Below, piece by piece: positions 12,060 to 29,401 of a stretch of DNA of 33,340 bases. The DNA lies in assembly GCA_001797615.1 (NCBI GenBank), contig MGPV01000004.1, forward strand, positions 6,105 through 39,444, read 5' to 3'. The position numbers and the translations under genes are program-made. The stretch's first letter is position 1. Every line of letters starts with the position of its first letter. This DNA comes from Deltaproteobacteria bacterium GWC2_65_14 (lineage in GTDB: Bacteria > Desulfobacterota > Deferrimicrobia > Deferrimicrobiales > Deferrimicrobiaceae). Under the pieces are notes generated by a model. The model searched no databases, was not told where the DNA came from, and saw only the letters and a list, made by a program, of their open reading frames with translations.

Positions 12060-12083
12060 ATAAGAACATCACGGAAGTTCCCT

Positions 12084-12242
12084 TCGGGCGCCCGGACAGG
12101 GTAACGGGAAGATGGTGCGAATCCATCGCTGCCCCGCAACTGTGACCGGCGACGAAATCCGCAACGAGGCCACTGGGGAGAAAGACCCCCCGGGAAGGCG
12201 CGGAGAGTAGGCTCGCAGCCGGAAGCCAGGAGACCGGCCCGA
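12084..12242 (+). promoter_or_regulatory. Cobalamin riboswitch upstream of btuF
   Basis: A canonical B12-sensing aptamer. Conserved blocks appear in order: GGGAAGATGGTGCGAATCC, GCTGCCCCGCAACTGTGA, GCCACTG, CGGGAAGGC, AGTAGG and the B12 box AAGCCAGGAGACC. Closing helix P1 can form between TCGGGC (12084-12089) and GCCCGA (12237-12242). It precedes a terminator-like hairpin and the periplasmic B12-binding protein gene, so B12 should repress import. Confidence 0.95.
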
Positions 12243-12306
12243 CAGGGAGTTTTCCCGGGACACCTTTCGCGGGCGAAGGGTCGGGAACCGGCAGGCGAAA
12301 CTACCG

Positions 12307-20348: not shown

Positions 20349-22814
20349 ATGGAGATCCCGGTCGAAAAAAGGTTCGCCATGCTGTCCCGGGTGGTCGAGA
20401 TCTCGAACTCGAACATCCAGGTCGAGAACCGGCTGAAGTTCATCTGCGACCTCCTCATGCGGGAGAGCGGGGTCGACTGCGTCTGCATGTACCAGAAGGA
20501 TCTCCGGGGGGAGGAGCTGACCCCGTGGGTCTCCTCCTGCCTCCAGATCGAGGAGTGCAGCCGGTTCGACTTCCGGATCCGGCCGGGGGAAGGGGTGGCC
20601 GGCAAGGCGGTGCAGAAGCGGGCCCCCGTCTTCTTCCCCGACGTGACCGAGACTCCCCCCGCCCCCGCGGTGCCCGGGGAGATGCGCGATTTCCGGTCGA
20701 TCCTCTCCGTCCCCATCATGGACGACGTCTACCTCTACGGCGCGATGAACCTTTCCCACCGGACCGTCACCGCGTTTCCGGAGGAGCAGGTCGCCATGCT
20801 GCGGGTGGTCGCCACGGAGGCGGCCGGGGCGATCCGGAACAGCCGGCTTTACGGGGACGCGAGGAAGCGGGTCTCCGAGCTGCTCACGCTGAACGAGATC
20901 GGACGGGCGATCACCTCCACCTTCCACGTCCGCGACATCCTCGGGTACGTGGCCAAGACCACCTCGCGCCTCCTCCAGTCGGACGGGTGCACGATCCGCC
21001 TCGCCGGGGAGAAGGGGCAAGGCGCGCTCAAGGTGATGGTCGACGAGGGGTATGCCCACACCGGCCTGAAGCGGGAGCTCCGCTCGACCGGCAAGATGCT
21101 GGCGAACCAGATCGTCCGGGAGAGACGGCCCCTCCTGATCAACGGTCCGGAGGACTCCCCGATGTACGGCTCCCTCTCCCGCCATGGGATCGCCTCCTTC
21201 CTCGGACTTCCCATCCTCTCGAAGGGGAAGGCGCTGGGGGTGATCAACTACTACTCCAGCAGCCCCCGGGTCCTGTTCGACATCGAGGTGATGCACCTGA
21301 TGCAGACGGTCTGCAGCCAGCTGGCGAACATGATCGAGAACTCCTCCATGTTCCGGGAGGCCCAGCAGCTCGCCCAGGAGAACCAGGCCCGGGCGAGGCG
21401 TTTTTCCACGCTCTACAACGTCGCGCGGGCGCTCATGTCGACCGTCCGGACCGACCGGCTCCTCCAGGTCACGCTGGGAGCGCTCACCTCCCCCTCCGGG
21501 CTGAACTTCAGCAGGGCGATCCTGTTCCTGCTCTCCGAGGACGGGAAGCAGCTCGTGGCGCGGATGGGAAGGGAAGCCGGACCCCGCAAGGGGAGAGAGC
21601 GGAAGCGCCGCGCTCGCCCCCCGGAGGGGGAATTGCCGGACTGGACGGCCGGGAGCGGGGAGAGCTCCGCGGAGAGCTGGACGGCGGTCGACCGGATCCG
21701 GATCCCGCTGGCGGAGTCCTGTCTCGTCGCGAAGGCGGTGTTGGACAAAAAGGCGGTGCGGACCGGAAGCGGCTGCCCGGCGGCAAGGGGCGCCCACGCG
21801 GAGCGGTTCTGCGGAAACCACCCTCCCTCCTTCGCCACCGTCCCCCTCCTGGTCAAGGGGGAGGTCCGCGGCGCCATCTACGTGGACAACCGGTTCCGGG
21901 ACCGGGAGATCACGGAGGAGGACATCCAGATCCTGACGATGTTTGCCTCCGAGGTCTGCCTCGCCATGGAGAACGCCTCGCTGTACGAGCGGCTCGAGGG
22001 GGCCCTGGAGGCCGTCCGGCTCACCCAGGACCGGCTCCTCCAGAGCGAGAAGCTCGCGGCGCTCGGGGAGATGGCGGCCCGGATCGCCCACGAGATCAAG
22101 AACCCGCTGACGGTGATCGGCGGGTTCACCGCGCGGATGGCCCGGAAGGAGGCGGAGGGGAGGCCGGATCGCGCGGCGATCGGGAGGTACGCGAAGATCA
22201 TCCTGAAGGAGGTCCAGCGGCTGGAGCGGATCGTCCAGGAGACGCTCTACTTCTCCCGCGAGGCGGTTCCCTTGTTCCGGCCGGTGGACCTCCATGCCGA
22301 GGTCCGGGAGGTCCTCGCGATGTTCACGGAGGAGCTGGAGGAGTCCGGCATCGCGAAGGTCACCGAACTGGCGGCCGATCCCCCCGTCGTATCCGTCGAC
22401 CCGGACCAGATCCGGCAGGTCCTCTGGAACCTTGTCGCGAATGCCGTCCATGCGATGGCGGAGGGGGGAACCCTCACCGTGGCCACCCGGTCCGCGCACG
22501 GGGAGGAGGGGGAGGGGCTGGTCCTGCTGGTCGGCGACACCGGCGGCGGGATCCCCCACGACGCGGTGCACAACATCTTCAACCCGTTCTTCACGACCAA
22601 GCCCAGGGGCACGGGGCTGGGCCTTCCGATCGTCCACGCCATCGTCCAGAAGCACGGGGGGACGATCCACCTGGACAACCGGGAGGGGGAGGGGGTGACC
22701 TTCTCGGTCTTCCTGCCCCGGGTCCCGCGCGAGCTGGGGACGGGGGAACGGATCCTGGAGCAGATGCGGAAAGGCGCGGGGAATGGAACCCTCGTTACGG
22801 GACATTCGGGATAA
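20349..22814 (+). CDS. Soluble sensor histidine kinase with three GAF-like domains
   Basis: Cytoplasmic sensor kinase of 821 residues without membrane segments. Three GAF-like modules are visible: about 20-175 (GEGVAGKAV, RSILSVPI), 195-350 (LGLPILSKGKALGVINYYS) and 360-555 (CLVAKAVLDKKAVR, FATVPLLVKGEVRGAIYVDN). The third carries an insertion with Arg-rich and Cys/His elements (GCPAARGAHAERFCGNH), possibly a metal or redox site. The kinase core has the phospho-acceptor in AHEIKNPLTVIGG (H581), the N box LWNLVANAVHAM, and G boxes GDTGGGIP and GTGLGLPIV. No receiver domain or regulator gene is adjacent. The gene overlaps mqnE by 32 bases, so it may be coupled to menaquinone genes. The signal sensed is unknown. 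Confidence 0.9.
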   Translation: MEIPVEKRFAMLSRVVEISNSNIQVENRLKFICDLLMRESGVDCVCMYQKDLRGEELTPWVSSCLQIEECSRFDFRIRPGEGVAGKAVQKRAPVFFPDVTETPPAPAVPGEMRDFRSILSVPIMDDVYLYGAMNLSHRTVTAFPEEQVAMLRVVATEAAGAIRNSRLYGDARKRVSELLTLNEIGRAITSTFHVRDILGYVAKTTSRLLQSDGCTIRLAGEKGQGALKVMVDEGYAHTGLKRELRSTGKMLANQIVRERRPLLINGPEDSPMYGSLSRHGIASFLGLPILSKGKALGVINYYSSSPRVLFDIEVMHLMQTVCSQLANMIENSSMFREAQQLAQENQARARRFSTLYNVARALMSTVRTDRLLQVTLGALTSPSGLNFSRAILFLLSEDGKQLVARMGREAGPRKGRERKRRARPPEGELPDWTAGSGESSAESWTAVDRIRIPLAESCLVAKAVLDKKAVRTGSGCPAARGAHAERFCGNHPPSFATVPLLVKGEVRGAIYVDNRFRDREITEEDIQILTMFASEVCLAMENASLYERLEGALEAVRLTQDRLLQSEKLAALGEMAARIAHEIKNPLTVIGGFTARMARKEAEGRPDRAAIGRYAKIILKEVQRLERIVQETLYFSREAVPLFRPVDLHAEVREVLAMFTEELEESGIAKVTELAADPPVVSVDPDQIRQVLWNLVANAVHAMAEGGTLTVATRSAHGEEGEGLVLLVGDTGGGIPHDAVHNIFNPFFTTKPRGTGLGLPIVHAIVQKHGGTIHLDNREGEGVTFSVFLPRVPRELGTGERILEQMRKGAGNGTLVTGHSG

Positions 22815-23877
22815 GGTCGAAGCCGGGCGGCGGCTTTCCGGGGAGGATGCGCTGCGACTCTTCCGGACGCGCGACGTCCACACGGTGGGGGAGATGGCCG
22901 ACTTCGCCAACCGGCGGAAGAACGGCGACCGGGTCTACTTCATCGTGAATCGGCACATCAACCCGACGAACGTCTGCGTGAACCGGTGCAGGTTCTGCGC
23001 GTTTTCCAAGAGCAGGGAGGAGCCGCTCGCCTACACCATGACGATGGACGAGATCCTGCGGCGGGCGGACGAGGCGAGGGAGCAGAACGCGACCGAACTG
23101 CACATCGTGGGGGGGCTCCATCCGGACCTCCCGTTCGACTTCTATCTCTCGATGCTGCGGACCCTTTCGGAGCGGCACCCCGGGATGCACATCCAGGGGT
23201 TCACCGCCGTCGAGATCGACTACTTCTCCCGGATCTCCGGCCTTCCCCTGGACGAGGTGATCCGCCGGCTGAAGGAGGCGGGGCTGGGGAGCCTCCCCGG
23301 GGGCGGGGCGGAGATCTTCGCTCCCGAGATCCGCAACGCCATCTGCCCGGAGAAGATCCCGGGGGAGCGGTGGCTCGAGGTGATGGAGGCGGTGCACGCC
23401 GCGGGGCTGCGGAGCAACGCGACGATGCTCTACGGCCACGTGGAGACCCTCGAGTCGCGGGTGGACCACCTGCAGAGGCTGCGGGAGCTGCAGGACCGCA
23501 CCGGGGGGTTCCAGGCCTTCATCCCGCTGGCCTTCCACCCGAAAAACACGGAGATCGCCAAGGGATACACGACGGGGCTGGAGGACCTGCTCTCCCTCGC
23601 GGTGGCGCGTCTCTTCCTCGACAACTTTTCCCACGTGAAGTCGTTCTGGATCATGGTGGGCCCGAAGATCGCGCAGATCTCCCTCCACTTCGGGGTGGAC
23701 GACATCGACGGGACGGTAGTCGAGGAGAGGATCACCCATGCCGCCGGCGCGCAGGCCGGGATGGCGATGACGGTCTCGGAGCTGGTGGCCATGATCCGGC
23801 AGGCGGGGCGGGTCCCGGTGGAGCGGGACACCCTCTATAACGTGATCCGCGAATGGCCGGCGGAGGAGGCCCGGTGA
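22783..23877 (+). CDS. mqnE: Aminofutalosine synthase (menaquinone, futalosine pathway)
   Basis: Radical SAM enzyme of 364 residues that joins SAM to 3-[(1-carboxyvinyl)oxy]benzoate to give aminofutalosine. The cluster motif is C65-x3-C69-x2-C72 ([10 protein letters not shown]). It is followed by family-typical [61 protein letters not shown] and [13 protein letters not shown]. It starts inside the 3' end of the kinase gene, 32 bases before that stop; no later in-frame ATG or GTG precedes the conserved N-terminal region, so the overlap looks real. MqnC follows with a GTGA overlap. The MqnE/MqnC pair distinguishes this from the related FbiC/CofH enzymes. Confidence 0.94.
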
Positions 23878-24953
23878 CCTGGCGGGAATCGCTCGGGCGG
23901 GCGCTGGAGGGTTCCGCGGCTCCGGAGGATGCGGCTCTTCTCCTCCGGGAGGCGCCGCTGTTCGACCTGGGGCGCGCCGCCGACGCGGTCCGGCGGCGGA
24001 TCCACCCGGACGGGATCGTCACCTACATCGTCGACCGGAACGTGAACTACACGAACATCTGCGTCTGCGCCTGCTCCTTCTGCGCCTTCTACCGGGAGAA
24101 GGGGGCCCCCGACGCCTATCTTCTCTCCGACGAGGGGCTGTCGAGGAAGATCGAGGAGACGCTGGCGCTCGGGGGGACGCAGATCCTCCTGCAGGGCGGC
24201 TTGCACCCCGACTGGGGGATCGAGGAGGCGGTCCGTCTCGTGCGCGCGGTGAAGCGGCACCCGATCCGGCTGCACGGCTTTTCCCCTCCCGAGATCTGGC
24301 ACTTCGCGAGCCGCTCGGGGATCGGCGTCGGCGAGGCGATCTCCCGCCTCATGGAGGCCGGGATCGACTCGATCCCCGGCGGCGGAGCCGAGATCCTGGA
24401 CGACGAGGTCCGCGGGCTCATCAGCCCGAGGAAGATCGGCTGGAAGCAGTGGGCGGCCGTCATGCGGGAGGCGCACCGCCGGGGGCTGCCCACCTCCGCG
24501 ACGATGATGTTCGGCAGCGTCGAGACGCCGGAGCAGGTCGCGACGCACCTGGTAAGGGTCCGGGATCTGCAGGCGGAGACCGGGGGGTTCACCTCGTTTA
24601 TTCCCTGGACCTTCCAGCCGGGAAACACCGCCCTCTCCCGGGATCCCCGATACGGGACAGGCGGAGGGAACGGGCTCGGCCACCCGCTCGGCTACCTCCG
24701 GGTCCTGGCCGTCTCCCGGCTCCTGCTCCGGAATGTCTCCCGGCTCCAGGTCTCCTGGGTGACGATGGGGGCCAAGGTGGCGCAGCTGGGGCTTTTCTTC
24801 GGCGGGAACGACTTCGGCAGCACGATGATCGAGGAGAACGTCGTGGCGGCGGCGGGGGTCTCCTTCCGGATGAGCGAGGAGGAGATCGTCGCGACGATCC
24901 GCGACGCGGGGTTTACCCCCGCCAGACGGGAGGCCACCTCATGCTCGACGTGA
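23874..24953 (+). CDS. mqnC: Cyclic dehypoxanthine futalosine synthase
   Basis: Radical SAM enzyme of 359 residues that cyclises dehypoxanthine futalosine in the futalosine route to menaquinone. The cluster motif is C63-x3-C67-x2-C70 in [17 protein letters not shown]. Further typical segments are [61 protein letters not shown] and [13 protein letters not shown] prefer GTG 23874, which overlaps the mqnE stop and has GGAGGAGG just upstream, over the ATG 21 bases earlier, which would place the ribosome site inside the gene. A Gly/Tyr-rich insertion ([17 protein letters not shown]) sits near residues 261-277. Its 3' end overlaps serS by 13 bases. Confidence 0.94.
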
Positions 24954-26922: not shown

Positions 26923-28503
26923 CTACGGTGACGCGATGGCCGCCTTCCTTCCGCCTTTTCTCTTCCCCGTCTTCCGGGCCGACTTCGTCTTCTCCTGATC
27001 GGCGACCCACCGGTTGATCGCGTTGACGTAGGCCTTCACCGCCGCCTCGATGATGTCGGTGGAGGAGGCGGCCCCGGCGAAGATCGTCCCGTTGTCCTGG
27101 ATCCGGACCGTCGCCTCCCCGATGGCGTCCTTTCCCGAGGTGACCGCGGAGAGCCCGAAGTTGATCAGCCGGAAGTTCCTCCCCACGACCCGCTCGATGC
27201 ACTTGTAGGCGGCCTCGATCGGCCCGTTCCCTGTTGCGGCCTCCTCGATCACCTCGTCGCCCCGCCGGAGGCGGATGGCGGCCATCGGCGTGGCCTCCGT
27301 GCTGGAGAGGATCTGGACATGCTCCAGCCGGTAGGTCTCCGGGACCTTGAAGAGCTCCTCCTGCACGAGGATCTCGAGGTCCTCGACCATCACCTCCTTC
27401 TTCTTGTCCGCCAGCACGAGGAACTTCTCGTAGATCGCGTCCAGCTGCCCCTCGGAGAGCTTGTGCCCCATCCCCGAGATGTGGTGCTTGAGGGCCGCCC
27501 GGCCGGATCGCGCGGTGAGGGTGAAGGAGTGGGCCGACCCGCCGACGTCTTCGGGCCGGACGATCTCGTACGTCGAGCGGTCCTTGATGATCCCGTCCTG
27601 ATGGATGCCGGAGGAGTGGGCGAAGGCGTTCATGCCGACGATCGCCTTGTTCCGCTGGACCGGCAGCCCCATGAGCGCCGAGACCATCTTGCTCGTCTTC
27701 ATGATCTCCTTCGTGTTCAGCCCCGTGTAGAGGTTCCGGAAGACGTCCTTCCGGGTGCGGATCGCCATCGCCACCTCCTCGAGGGCGGCGTTTCCCGCGC
27801 GCTCCCCGATTCCGTTCACCGTCACCTCGGCCTGCCGGGCCCCCGCGAGGATCCCGGCCAGCGTGTTCGCCGTGGCCAGACCCAGATCGTTGTGGCAGTG
27901 CATCGAGAGGATCACCTTGTCGAGCGCGGGGACCTTCTCTTTCAGGCGGCGGACCCGGTCGGCCATCTCCTGGGGGGTGGCGTATCCCACCGTGTCCGGG
28001 ACGTTGATCGTCCGGGCTCCCGCCTTCACGACCGCCTCCACGGTCCGGCAGAGATACTCGAAGTCGGTGCGGGCGGCGTCCTCCGTGGAGAACTCCACGT
28101 CGGGGCAGAGGGAGCAGGCATACTTCACCGTGTCCACGCACCACTGGAGGATCTTCTCCCGGTCGGACCGGAACTTCTTCTGGATGTGGATGTCCGAGGT
28201 GCCCAGGAAGGTGTGGATCCGCGGGCGCTTGGCGATTTTCACCGCCTCCCACAGGGTGTCGATGTCCTTCTTGACCGCCCGCGCCAGTCCCGTGATGACC
28301 GGCCCCCGGACCTCCTTCGCGACCGCCTGGACCGATTCGAAATCGCCGGGTGAGGAGGCGGGGAATCCCGCCTCGATGATGTCCACCCCCAGCGTCGCCA
28401 GCTGCCGGGCGATCTTGACCTTCTCCTCCTTCGCCAGCTTCGCGCCCGGCACCTGCTCGCCGTCCCGCAACGTCGTGTCGAAGATGTAGACCCGTTCTGC
28501 CAT
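26923..28503 (-). CDS. leuA: 2-isopropylmalate synthase
   Basis: Catalyses the first committed step of leucine synthesis, condensing acetyl-CoA with 2-oxoisovalerate; 526 residues. The HMGL-type barrel starts with FDTTLRDGEQVPGAKL (8-23), carrying the catalytic Arg and metal-binding Asp. HCHNDLGLATANTLAGI near 205 supplies the metal His pair, and NGIGERAGNAALEEVAMA follows. HSSGIHQDGIIKDRSTYEIV is the link to the C-terminal LeuA regulatory domain, from about 390 on, which normally senses leucine. The C-terminus is a Lys/Arg-rich tail. Citramalate synthase is a possible alternative, but the leucine-codon attenuator directly upstream argues for leucine synthesis. GGAGG lies seven bases before the ATG. 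Confidence 0.95.
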   Translation of the reverse strand: MAERVYIFDTTLRDGEQVPGAKLAKEEKVKIARQLATLGVDIIEAGFPASSPGDFESVQAVAKEVRGPVITGLARAVKKDIDTLWEAVKIAKRPRIHTFLGTSDIHIQKKFRSDREKILQWCVDTVKYACSLCPDVEFSTEDAARTDFEYLCRTVEAVVKAGARTINVPDTVGYATPQEMADRVRRLKEKVPALDKVILSMHCHNDLGLATANTLAGILAGARQAEVTVNGIGERAGNAALEEVAMAIRTRKDVFRNLYTGLNTKEIMKTSKMVSALMGLPVQRNKAIVGMNAFAHSSGIHQDGIIKDRSTYEIVRPEDVGGSAHSFTLTARSGRAALKHHISGMGHKLSEGQLDAIYEKFLVLADKKKEVMVEDLEILVQEELFKVPETYRLEHVQILSSTEATPMAAIRLRRGDEVIEEAATGNGPIEAAYKCIERVVGRNFRLINFGLSAVTSGKDAIGEATVRIQDNGTIFAGAASSTDIIEAAVKAYVNAINRWVADQEKTKSARKTGKRKGGRKAAIASP

Positions 28504-28542: not shown

Positions 28543-28579
28543 AAAAAAAAAGCCGCCGGGATAGTAGGTTCCCGGCGGC
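28543..28579 (-). terminator. Rho-independent terminator of the leu attenuator
   Basis: On the minus strand a perfect 10-bp GC-rich stem (28570-28579 with 28552-28561) with an 8-base loop is followed by nine T (28551-28543). It sits 40 bases upstream of leuA, so it can only function as an attenuator for leuA. Confidence 0.93.
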
Positions 28580-28671
28580 CGAAAACAAAGCCCGCGGGAA
28601 CCCTGCCGGTCCCCGCGGCCACGTAGGCGTTATGTCACTCGATCACGCGCTCGCGCGGCGGACGGACCGGC
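28552..28671 (-). promoter_or_regulatory. Leucine attenuator: alternative RNA segments 1-4
   Basis: Segment 1 (GCCGGTCC, 28671-28664, inside the leader ORF) pairs exactly with segment 2 (GGACCGGC, 28612-28605). The distal part of segment 2 (GGTTCCCG, 28602-28595) pairs exactly with segment 3 (CGGGAACC, 28574-28567), which excludes the 3:4 terminator. A ribosome stalled on the leucine codons would cover segment 1 and so favour the antiterminator. A local hairpin 28592-28598/28612-28618 may compete. Confidence 0.85.
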
Positions 28672-28741
28672 CTCCCGGTAGGCCCAGTAGGGCGAGCCCG
28701 CGAAGTCGACCGCAATTCCGCATGAGAGCCGTGGCACGCAT
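28643..28741 (-). CDS. Leucine-rich leader peptide of the leu attenuator
   Basis: A 32-codon ORF on the minus strand: ATG at 28741, GAGG six bases upstream, TGA at 28643. Six of its residues are Leu; five lie in the nine-residue stretch LRGLALLGL (residues 13-21), coded CTT, CTC, CTA, CTG, CTA. CTA is a codon expected to be rare in such GC-rich DNA, so these are good control codons. A second in-frame ATG is codon 7. The peptide ends about 60 bases before the terminator stem and about 140 bases before leuA. It has no expected function beyond translation itself. Confidence 0.85.
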   Translation of the reverse strand: MRATALMRNCGRLRGLALLGLPGGRSVRRASA

Positions 28742-28777
28742 AAGTATCCTCAGGGTACGGGGAGCCGCCCCGGGAAG

Positions 28778-29401
28778 TCAAGGAGGTATTTTCCCGGGGT
28801 CCTGCCGTAGCGGGAGCCTTTCGGGCGACGCGATCCCCCCCGAAACGAGCATCCGGATCGCCTGCTCCACCTTCATGTCCAGGGTTTGGACCATTTCCTC
28901 CGGGATGAAGAGCACATTCCCGAGGTAGAGATGGTTCGTGGGCACGTAGACCACCGCGTGGGTCTTCCCCTCGACCTCCGCCGTGCCGGTGTGGAATCCG
29001 ACGGCCCGGGAGCCCGGGCAGGGGTATTCCACCAGCACCACCTTCTTGAACGACTTCGTGTTGGCCGGCGAGAAGGCGTCGGTCAGCTGCTTCACGGTGG
29101 AGTAGAGGGTGCGGTACCAGGGGATCCGGGCGATGACCCACTCGAGCCACGCGAGGACCCGCTCCCCGACGACGTTCCTGGCGAAGAGCCCCACGAGCAG
29201 GATGATCGTCAGGCCGGCGAAGATGCCGGTCCCCGGAATATGGCCGGTCCCCGGAAAGAGGAACTGGACGATCCCGTCGATGGGGCGGGAAAAGAGGTTG
29301 TCCACCGCCCGGAAGAACCAGACCAGCAGGGCGATGGAGATCACGAGCGGGAAGATGACAAACAGGCCCGTGAGGAAACTCTTTTTCAGATTCGCGCGCA
29401 C
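28778..29401 (-). CDS. DUF502 family membrane protein
   Basis: Protein of 207 residues with two membrane helices near the N-terminus, about 9-30 (FLTGLFVIFPLVISIALLVW) and 58-77 (GTGIFAGLTIILLVGLFARN). Then comes a conserved soluble part containing IPWYRTLYSTVKQLTDAF, VVLVEYPCPGSRAVGFHTG and VVYVPTNHLYLGN. These motifs define DUF502, a widespread family of unknown function in bacteria and plants. It starts at GTG 29401. A TAGAAT (29413-29408) only six bases upstream could be a -10, implying an almost leaderless message; no good ribosome site is seen. It lies 37 bases upstream of the leu leader ORF on the same strand, so transcripts may read into the attenuator. Confidence 0.88.
   Translation of the reverse strand: MRANLKKSFLTGLFVIFPLVISIALLVWFFRAVDNLFSRPIDGIVQFLFPGTGHIPGTGIFAGLTIILLVGLFARNVVGERVLAWLEWVIARIPWYRTLYSTVKQLTDAFSPANTKSFKKVVLVEYPCPGSRAVGFHTGTAEVEGKTHAVVYVPTNHLYLGNVLFIPEEMVQTLDMKVEQAIRMLVSGGIASPERLPLRQDPGKIPP

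Follow-up and report, generated by a model that had tools for sequence, protein, structure and literature searches.

A predicted leucine transcription attenuator upstream of leuA in the Deferrimicrobiaceae

In the leucine attenuator of enteric bacteria (leuL), a Leu leader peptide containing rare CUA codons precedes leuA, and an antiterminator is set against a terminator. The enteric his attenuator is built from more segments and folds either as stem-loops AB, CD and EF or as the alternatives BC and DE (PMC10989985). Leucine leaders of other designs have been described: Streptomyces lividans possesses two leaderless Leu leader peptides, leuL1 and leuL2, with leuL1 preceding leuA, and in Streptomyces such leaders are reported both at leuA, where a typical terminator is absent, and at leuS, where one is present (PMC8079986); the actinobacterial LEU element is a pseudoknot whose Leu codons are paired with the Shine-Dalgarno sequence of leuA (PMC1262725); and Campylobacter LeuL is a 28-residue Leu leader with rare Leu codons, located before leuABCD (PMC3847290). 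In the passage of the source that treats it, the gammaproteobacterial rimP leader has a tandem terminator with a possible antiterminator (PMC2965389).

Here we describe the leuA leader of Deltaproteobacteria bacterium GWC2_65_14, as seen in a stretch of 33,340 nucleotides (the window, meaning the whole stretch of DNA analysed) from a 2.26 Mb assembly. Judging from comparison of related sequences, we consider that this leader is quite probably a ribosome-mediated transcription attenuator, through which leuA transcription would follow the supply of charged leucyl-tRNA. A literature search conducted outside the subscription journals, which hold the main survey of proteobacterial attenuators, returned no paper on the element.

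The leuA locus, its promoter and its leader peptide

The gene that follows the leader is identified as leuA by two NCBIfam models, its product scoring 677.6 bits against TIGR00973 (cut-off 598.7) and 737.1 bits against NF002086 (cut-off 532), and a DUF502 gene lies upstream of the leader in the same direction. Among named relatives, the closest is Deltaproteobacteria bacterium CSP1-8, which NCBI places among unclassified Deltaproteobacteria and whose LeuA is 90% identical. Our comparison set consists of 23 leuA leaders from the class, 21 from the same family and two from a sister family, and the alignment of these 23 is the basis for assigning the hairpins T1 and T2 listed in Table 1. Elsewhere in the window there are a full-length cobalamin riboswitch (105.5 bits; 12069-12256, plus strand) and, as overlapping neighbours followed by serS, the futalosine menaquinone pathway genes mqnE and mqnC (22783-24953, plus strand), both of which score above their NCBIfam cut-offs.

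Table 1. Features of the leuA leader in the window, and loci with candidate leucine attenuators outside the class
Feature	Position in window, or loci	Strand	Basis or remarks
Promoter: TTGACT (28781-28776), 18-nt spacer, TACCCT (28757-28752)	28752..28781	-	predicted from sequence
Leader peptide ORF, 32 codons, MRATALMRNCGRLRGLALLGLPGGRSVRRASA, then stop	28643..28741	-	direct translation; ORF in 23/23 leaders
Control codons 13-21 (L R G L A L L G L), region of segment 1	28679..28705	-	
Segment 2 (GCCGGTCC-GTCCG-CCGCG), between Leu codons and leader stop codon	28654..28671	-	
Small hairpin around leader stop codon, nested within 2:3	28620..28655	-	fold
T1, hairpin 3:4	28592..28618	-	terminator scan; 23/23 leaders; helix 93% paired
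Antiterminator helix 4:5, 28602-28595 with 28574-28567	28567..28602	-	helix 89% paired; 3 pairs with both sides changed
T2, hairpin 5:6 (28579-28570 with 28561-28552), then nine T (28551-28543)	28543..28579	-	
AGGAGG before leuA	28514-28509	-	
leuA, 2-isopropylmalate synthase	26923..28503	-	NCBIfam equivalog models
Candidate Leu attenuators before leuA, Desulfobacterales and other Deltaproteobacteria	L046-L051, L053-L056, L058, L059		
Candidate Leu attenuators before leuA, Planctomycetota	L065, L110		
Candidate Leu attenuators before leuA, Siphonobacter	L106, L108, L111		

The leader ORF reported in a preliminary description of this DNA, with five Leu codons among nine (codons 13-21) and CTA at codons 18 and 21, was recovered in full. 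Seven genes of the window use CTA for just one of their 298 Leu codons, as against the two in this leader. In the 23 leaders the ORF has 26-34 codons, includes Leu codons with at least one CTA in every case, and always precedes leuA; the CTC and CTA columns of the alignment are invariant. The stretch between the ATG and the run of Leu codons is variable in its letters and changes in length by whole codons only (15, 13 or 12 codons in the family, 11 and 12 in the sister family), as expected of a translated frame. The presence of CTA in these leaders exceeds what chance would give, and by its predicted translation the ORF is of the kind that serves leader-peptide attenuators: short, rich in Leu and conserved in frame.

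All 23 leaders are preceded by a TTGACA-like box, a spacer of exactly 18 nt and a TANNNT box. In the window 10 nt separate the end of the -10 box from the leader ATG, and this distance is 9-10 nt in 21 of 21 family members, so that the transcript should begin at the ATG or within a few bases of it, and the leader ORF of the family is probably leaderless. The gap between the -10 box and the ATG contains no conserved Shine-Dalgarno sequence among the family members (it reads, for example, GAGGATACTT, TATGGGACC and GATTGATACC). The ribosome site that the preliminary description placed before the ORF probably does not exist; the GAGG present there in the window belongs to the spacer between promoter and ATG and is unconserved in relatives. 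The two sister-family leaders have gaps of 25 and 32 nt, with a purine-rich stretch before the ATG (GGAGAG, GGAAGAG). The two families thus appear to differ in having a Shine-Dalgarno-bearing or a probably leaderless leader, which would imply a switch from the former to the latter, and a reader ORF that is probably leaderless is here encountered outside the Actinobacteria.

Two alternative RNA states

A terminator scan of the minus strand found two terminator-like hairpins, at 28618-28592 and, by the scan's count, 28580-28551, so that two putative intrinsic terminators lie between the leader ORF and leuA. The upstream one, T1, is the most conserved helix of the element; its 11 base pairs join segment 3 (28618-28608) to segment 4 (28602-28592) around the loop GGCAG. 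The downstream one, T2, has 10 base pairs, seven of which change on both sides among relatives, and is found in 22 of 23 leaders. The exception is L021, where T2 is unrecognisable and T1, followed by nine T, is the sole recognisable terminator; in the window the tails are the other way about, that of T1 being only GCTTTGTTTT (28591-28582) and that of T2 a run of nine T. A second hairpin-like repeat, GGGGGACACTCC...GGAATGTCCCCC, lies downstream of T2 and ahead of the leuA ribosome site in L003, L004, L005, L019, L023 and L121.

Further upstream and between the hairpins, two exact pairings of 8 bp on the minus strand, 28671-28664 (GCCGGTCC) with 28612-28605 (GGACCGGC) and 28602-28595 (GGTTCCCG) with 28574-28567 (CGGGAACC), were found as the preliminary description had given them, as were the 10 bp of T2 and its nine T. 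The pairings which that description numbered 1:2, 2:3 and 3:4 correspond to the antiterminator 2:3, the helix 4:5 and the terminator hairpin 5:6, respectively; it took this last for the only terminator and overlooked T1 and the T-rich tail behind it. Segment 3 takes part in 2:3 or in T1, segment 4 in T1 or in 4:5, and segment 5 in 4:5 or in T2, so that the terminating state (T1 with T2) and the antiterminating state (2:3 with 4:5) are mutually exclusive, each antiterminator helix drawing on the bases of a terminator.

Both states are conserved in the alignment of 23 leaders. The terminating state has 92.7% of its cells paired, with both-side changes at 8 of 22 pairs, and the antiterminating state 88.6%, with both-side changes at 6 of 25; the covariation score of each was matched by 0 of 500 shuffles, control (a) of these counts taking no account of relatedness. 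Sliding the partners against each other lowers the paired cells to 41-53% and 29-54%, respectively, and the count made after three rows were corrected by hand agrees with that on the uncorrected alignment. A linked change is seen in L004, L005 and L019, where a U to C change in segment 4 is accompanied by G in segment 3 and by an A to G change in segment 5, with both alternative pairs thereby retained. The relatives thus keep the Leu codons as well as the complementarities, and the joint loss that the preliminary description had named as evidence against it is not seen.

The helix 2:3 shows few independent double changes, and the case for it comes from its common register across the leaders and from the sister family, in which it is rebuilt with other letters (13 perfect base pairs in L123, and 11 base pairs with two wobbles in L122). 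In single GC-rich family members the 2:3 duplex is often no better than one of shuffled letters (p = 0.09 in the window), and exchanging segments 2 and 3 among species of the family gives similar energies for self and non-self pairs (-24.7 and -24.3 kcal/mol); such swaps do not discriminate because the sequence is conserved within the family, and the sister family alone does so. In most members the Leu-codon stretch can also be paired with segment 2 as a stem 1:2, of 8 pairs in L010, L021 and L052 and of 12 in L122; its local folding energies fail to beat shuffles, and we regard it as weakly supported. Arms similar to those of the small stop-codon hairpin (GAGCG...CGCTC) occur in many relatives.

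A model for leucine control, and competing readings

Of 200 dinucleotide shuffles of the leader RNA, 199 fold less well than the real sequence (z -2.9), and the result is similar for the region downstream of the ORF (z -3.5). In the fold of the entire leader with no ribosome on it, T1 and T2 are both present, and basal transcription should therefore stop there. If the footprint is assumed to span -15 to +15 nt around the P site, segment 2 stays exposed when the A site of the ribosome is at the first CTA, and GCCGG is free or nearly so in the leaders where this motif was found. With the ribosome stalled at CTA and segment 4 not yet emerged, the lowest-energy folds of the 23 leaders engage a median of 12 of the 15 segment-3 bases with upstream RNA, and after synthesis of segment 4 the 2:3 state differs from the best fold by a median of 1.1 kcal/mol. 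In the window, the 2:3 state is itself the best fold at segment 4 and lies 1.0 kcal/mol above the best at the end of T2, and the constrained fold of the stalled state contains 2:3, with the stop-codon hairpin nested in it, beside 4:5. The equilibrium of the stalled state favours T1 and T2, by about 1 kcal/mol in the window and by a median of 4.8 in the full set, so the switch must depend on the order of synthesis; in L012, L120 and L121, 4:5 is far weaker than T2 (by about 15-21 kcal/mol). With a ribosome at the leader stop codon, the RNA beyond folds T1, and segment 2 is covered in most relatives and over its second half only in the window, because the leader stop of the window is 9 nt further along than that of most relatives. 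On this geometry the control codons are so placed that segment 2 would be free during stalling and covered, in the window partly, during termination at the leader stop.

We propose that transcripts from the promoter begin at the leader ATG or immediately beside it and that ribosomes probably load on the leaderless mRNA. When leucine is scarce, the first ribosome would stall at the CTC and CTA codons, covering segment 1 and leaving segment 2 free to pair with segment 3 as soon as this is synthesised; segment 4 would then be available to segment 5, neither terminator would form, and leuA would be transcribed. When leucine is plentiful, the ribosome would reach the leader stop and cover segment 2 wholly or in part, or would depart and allow 1:2 to form; with segment 2 occupied, T1 and T2 would both fold, and transcription would end at one of the two tandem terminators. 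We give even chances to the more specific proposal that T1 and T2 are both genuine terminators, coupled through 4:5 and governed by a leaderless leader peptide through one ribosome decision. Their importance would then shift among species, the main stop moving from T1, as in L021, to T2, which has the stronger tail in the species of the window, and shut-off would be tighter.

The preliminary description also arrived at an attenuator, and its Leu-codon leader peptide and its choice between terminator and antiterminator at leuA stand, whereas its assignment of the segments does not. It recognised four segments, with 28671-28664 as segment 1 under the stalled ribosome, 28612-28595 as segment 2 and 28574-28567 as segment 3. 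Both of its 8-bp pairings are real and conserved, but the two stretches that serve as its segment 2 (28612-28605 and 28602-28595) share no base, and hence the pairings do not compete. A fold that omits 28671-28664 gives T1 and T2, and covering that stretch on starvation would therefore terminate transcription, the opposite sign to that required. Since this wiring also leaves aside T1, which is present in 23 of 23 leaders and is the one recognisable terminator of L021, we think it very unlikely to be correct. We judge it just as improbable that T1 and T2 are two constitutive tandem terminators for transcripts of the upstream DUF502 gene, next to an incidental Leu-rich ORF. The resemblance of T1 to T2, through which the 4:5 complementarity could stem from duplication, and the co-directional upstream gene are in keeping with such a reading, but the promoter in all 23 leaders lies at the very end of the DUF502 gene or after it, the frame of the ORF is conserved with invariant CTA codons, segment 2 within the ORF pairs with T1 in both families, and a covariance model did not find the element as a terminator elsewhere in 26 genomes of the class.

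An RNA that senses leucine without translation of the leader, as a riboswitch or a protein site, has been proposed for the actinobacterial LEU element, and leader mutations at Streptomyces leuA are reported to behave unlike classical attenuation (PMC1262725). The strong conservation of T1 would suit a sensor of this kind, but whole-codon indels before the Leu run and an invariant rare codon are expected only if the ORF is translated, and apart from the Leu codons there is no unpaired conserved core; we therefore hold this reading to be quite improbable at the present locus. Ribosome-mediated attenuation is the explanation that we prefer, and covariation within the data set of 23 conserved leaders offers a view of its alternative RNA states.

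Distribution and relation to described attenuators

A search of 26 genomes of the class with a covariance model (R1) found the element in 23, where strong matches occur once each and only at leuA; weaker matches elsewhere were ordinary terminators or chance. The three remaining genomes are G017, whose assembly has no leuA match, G007, with distant leuA homologues only, and G022, whose contig ends just before leuA. The ilvB gene was considered as a second target and set aside, as where its upstream gene is readable it lies behind another gene, often an apparent ilvD, and no Leu leader was seen. An interspersed element of about 94 bp, with ends GGACGGTCCT...AGGACCGTCC, is present as two tandem copies before ilvB at G003:C240:31481-31674, and also in L126, L142 and L145 and between T1 and leuA in L021. 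It has 15 matches in G003, 8 in G010, 7 in G009 and 2 in the genome of the window, and resembles a small mobile or REP-like repeat.

Outside the class, 73 leuA upstream regions were screened for an ORF with at least four Leu in eight codons followed by a terminator, and 23 of them were positive, against 0.1 expected from dinucleotide shuffles. Candidates are numerous in the Desulfobacterales (for example MRLLLLELLLLLGLLQGGVCLR-like), and in the phylum of the window such leaders are common ahead of leuA, with further examples in two other phyla (Table 1). The view that the enteric logic was independently assembled in this lineage is accordingly left unsupported: the predicted leaders speak against a separate invention and are compatible with one or several origins. 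Their occurrence in Desulfobacterales, Planctomycetota and Bacteroidota suggests that control of this type is far wider than the enteric textbook case, and the present element would extend leader-peptide attenuation to a lineage known in our data set only from metagenome-assembled genomes. The double-terminator design may recur in L027 (G062), from a different family of the phylum, whose Leu leader is followed by two CCATGG hairpin terminators in tandem.

Rfam Leu_leader (RF00512) gave no match at its gathering threshold and was absent from hits up to E = 5; the Rfam hits on the leader were chance-level sRNA matches only. The element is like enteric leuL in its Leu leader with rare CUA codons before leuA and in setting an antiterminator against a terminator, and differs in having two terminators, six segments and a probably leaderless start, and in governing the single gene leuA instead of a leu operon. 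With leuL1 of S. lividans the element has in common its position before leuA and, probably, a leaderless start; two intrinsic terminators separate leader and leuA here, in contrast both to leuL1, which is reported to be without a typical one, and to the actinobacterial LEU element. Campylobacter LeuL is similar in placing a Leu leader with rare Leu codons ahead of leu genes, but it belongs to a different lineage, its leader sequence is unrelated, and a coupled double terminator is undescribed for it (PMC3847290). The rimP leader resembles the element in its tandem terminators and possible antiterminator and concerns another gene, with a leader peptide undescribed in the passage concerned (PMC2965389). 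The enteric his attenuator likewise consists of a chain of six alternately pairing segments whose last hairpin is the terminator, and in our alignment 3:4, 5:6, 2:3 and 4:5 of such a chain are indicated by covariation and 1:2 by folding; here leucine would replace histidine, and the middle hairpin 3:4, having a T-rich tail, is itself terminator-like. The coupled two-terminator leuA leader is a variation on known attenuation: by analogy its mechanism would be that of classical attenuation, with a predicted topology closest to that of the enteric his leader.
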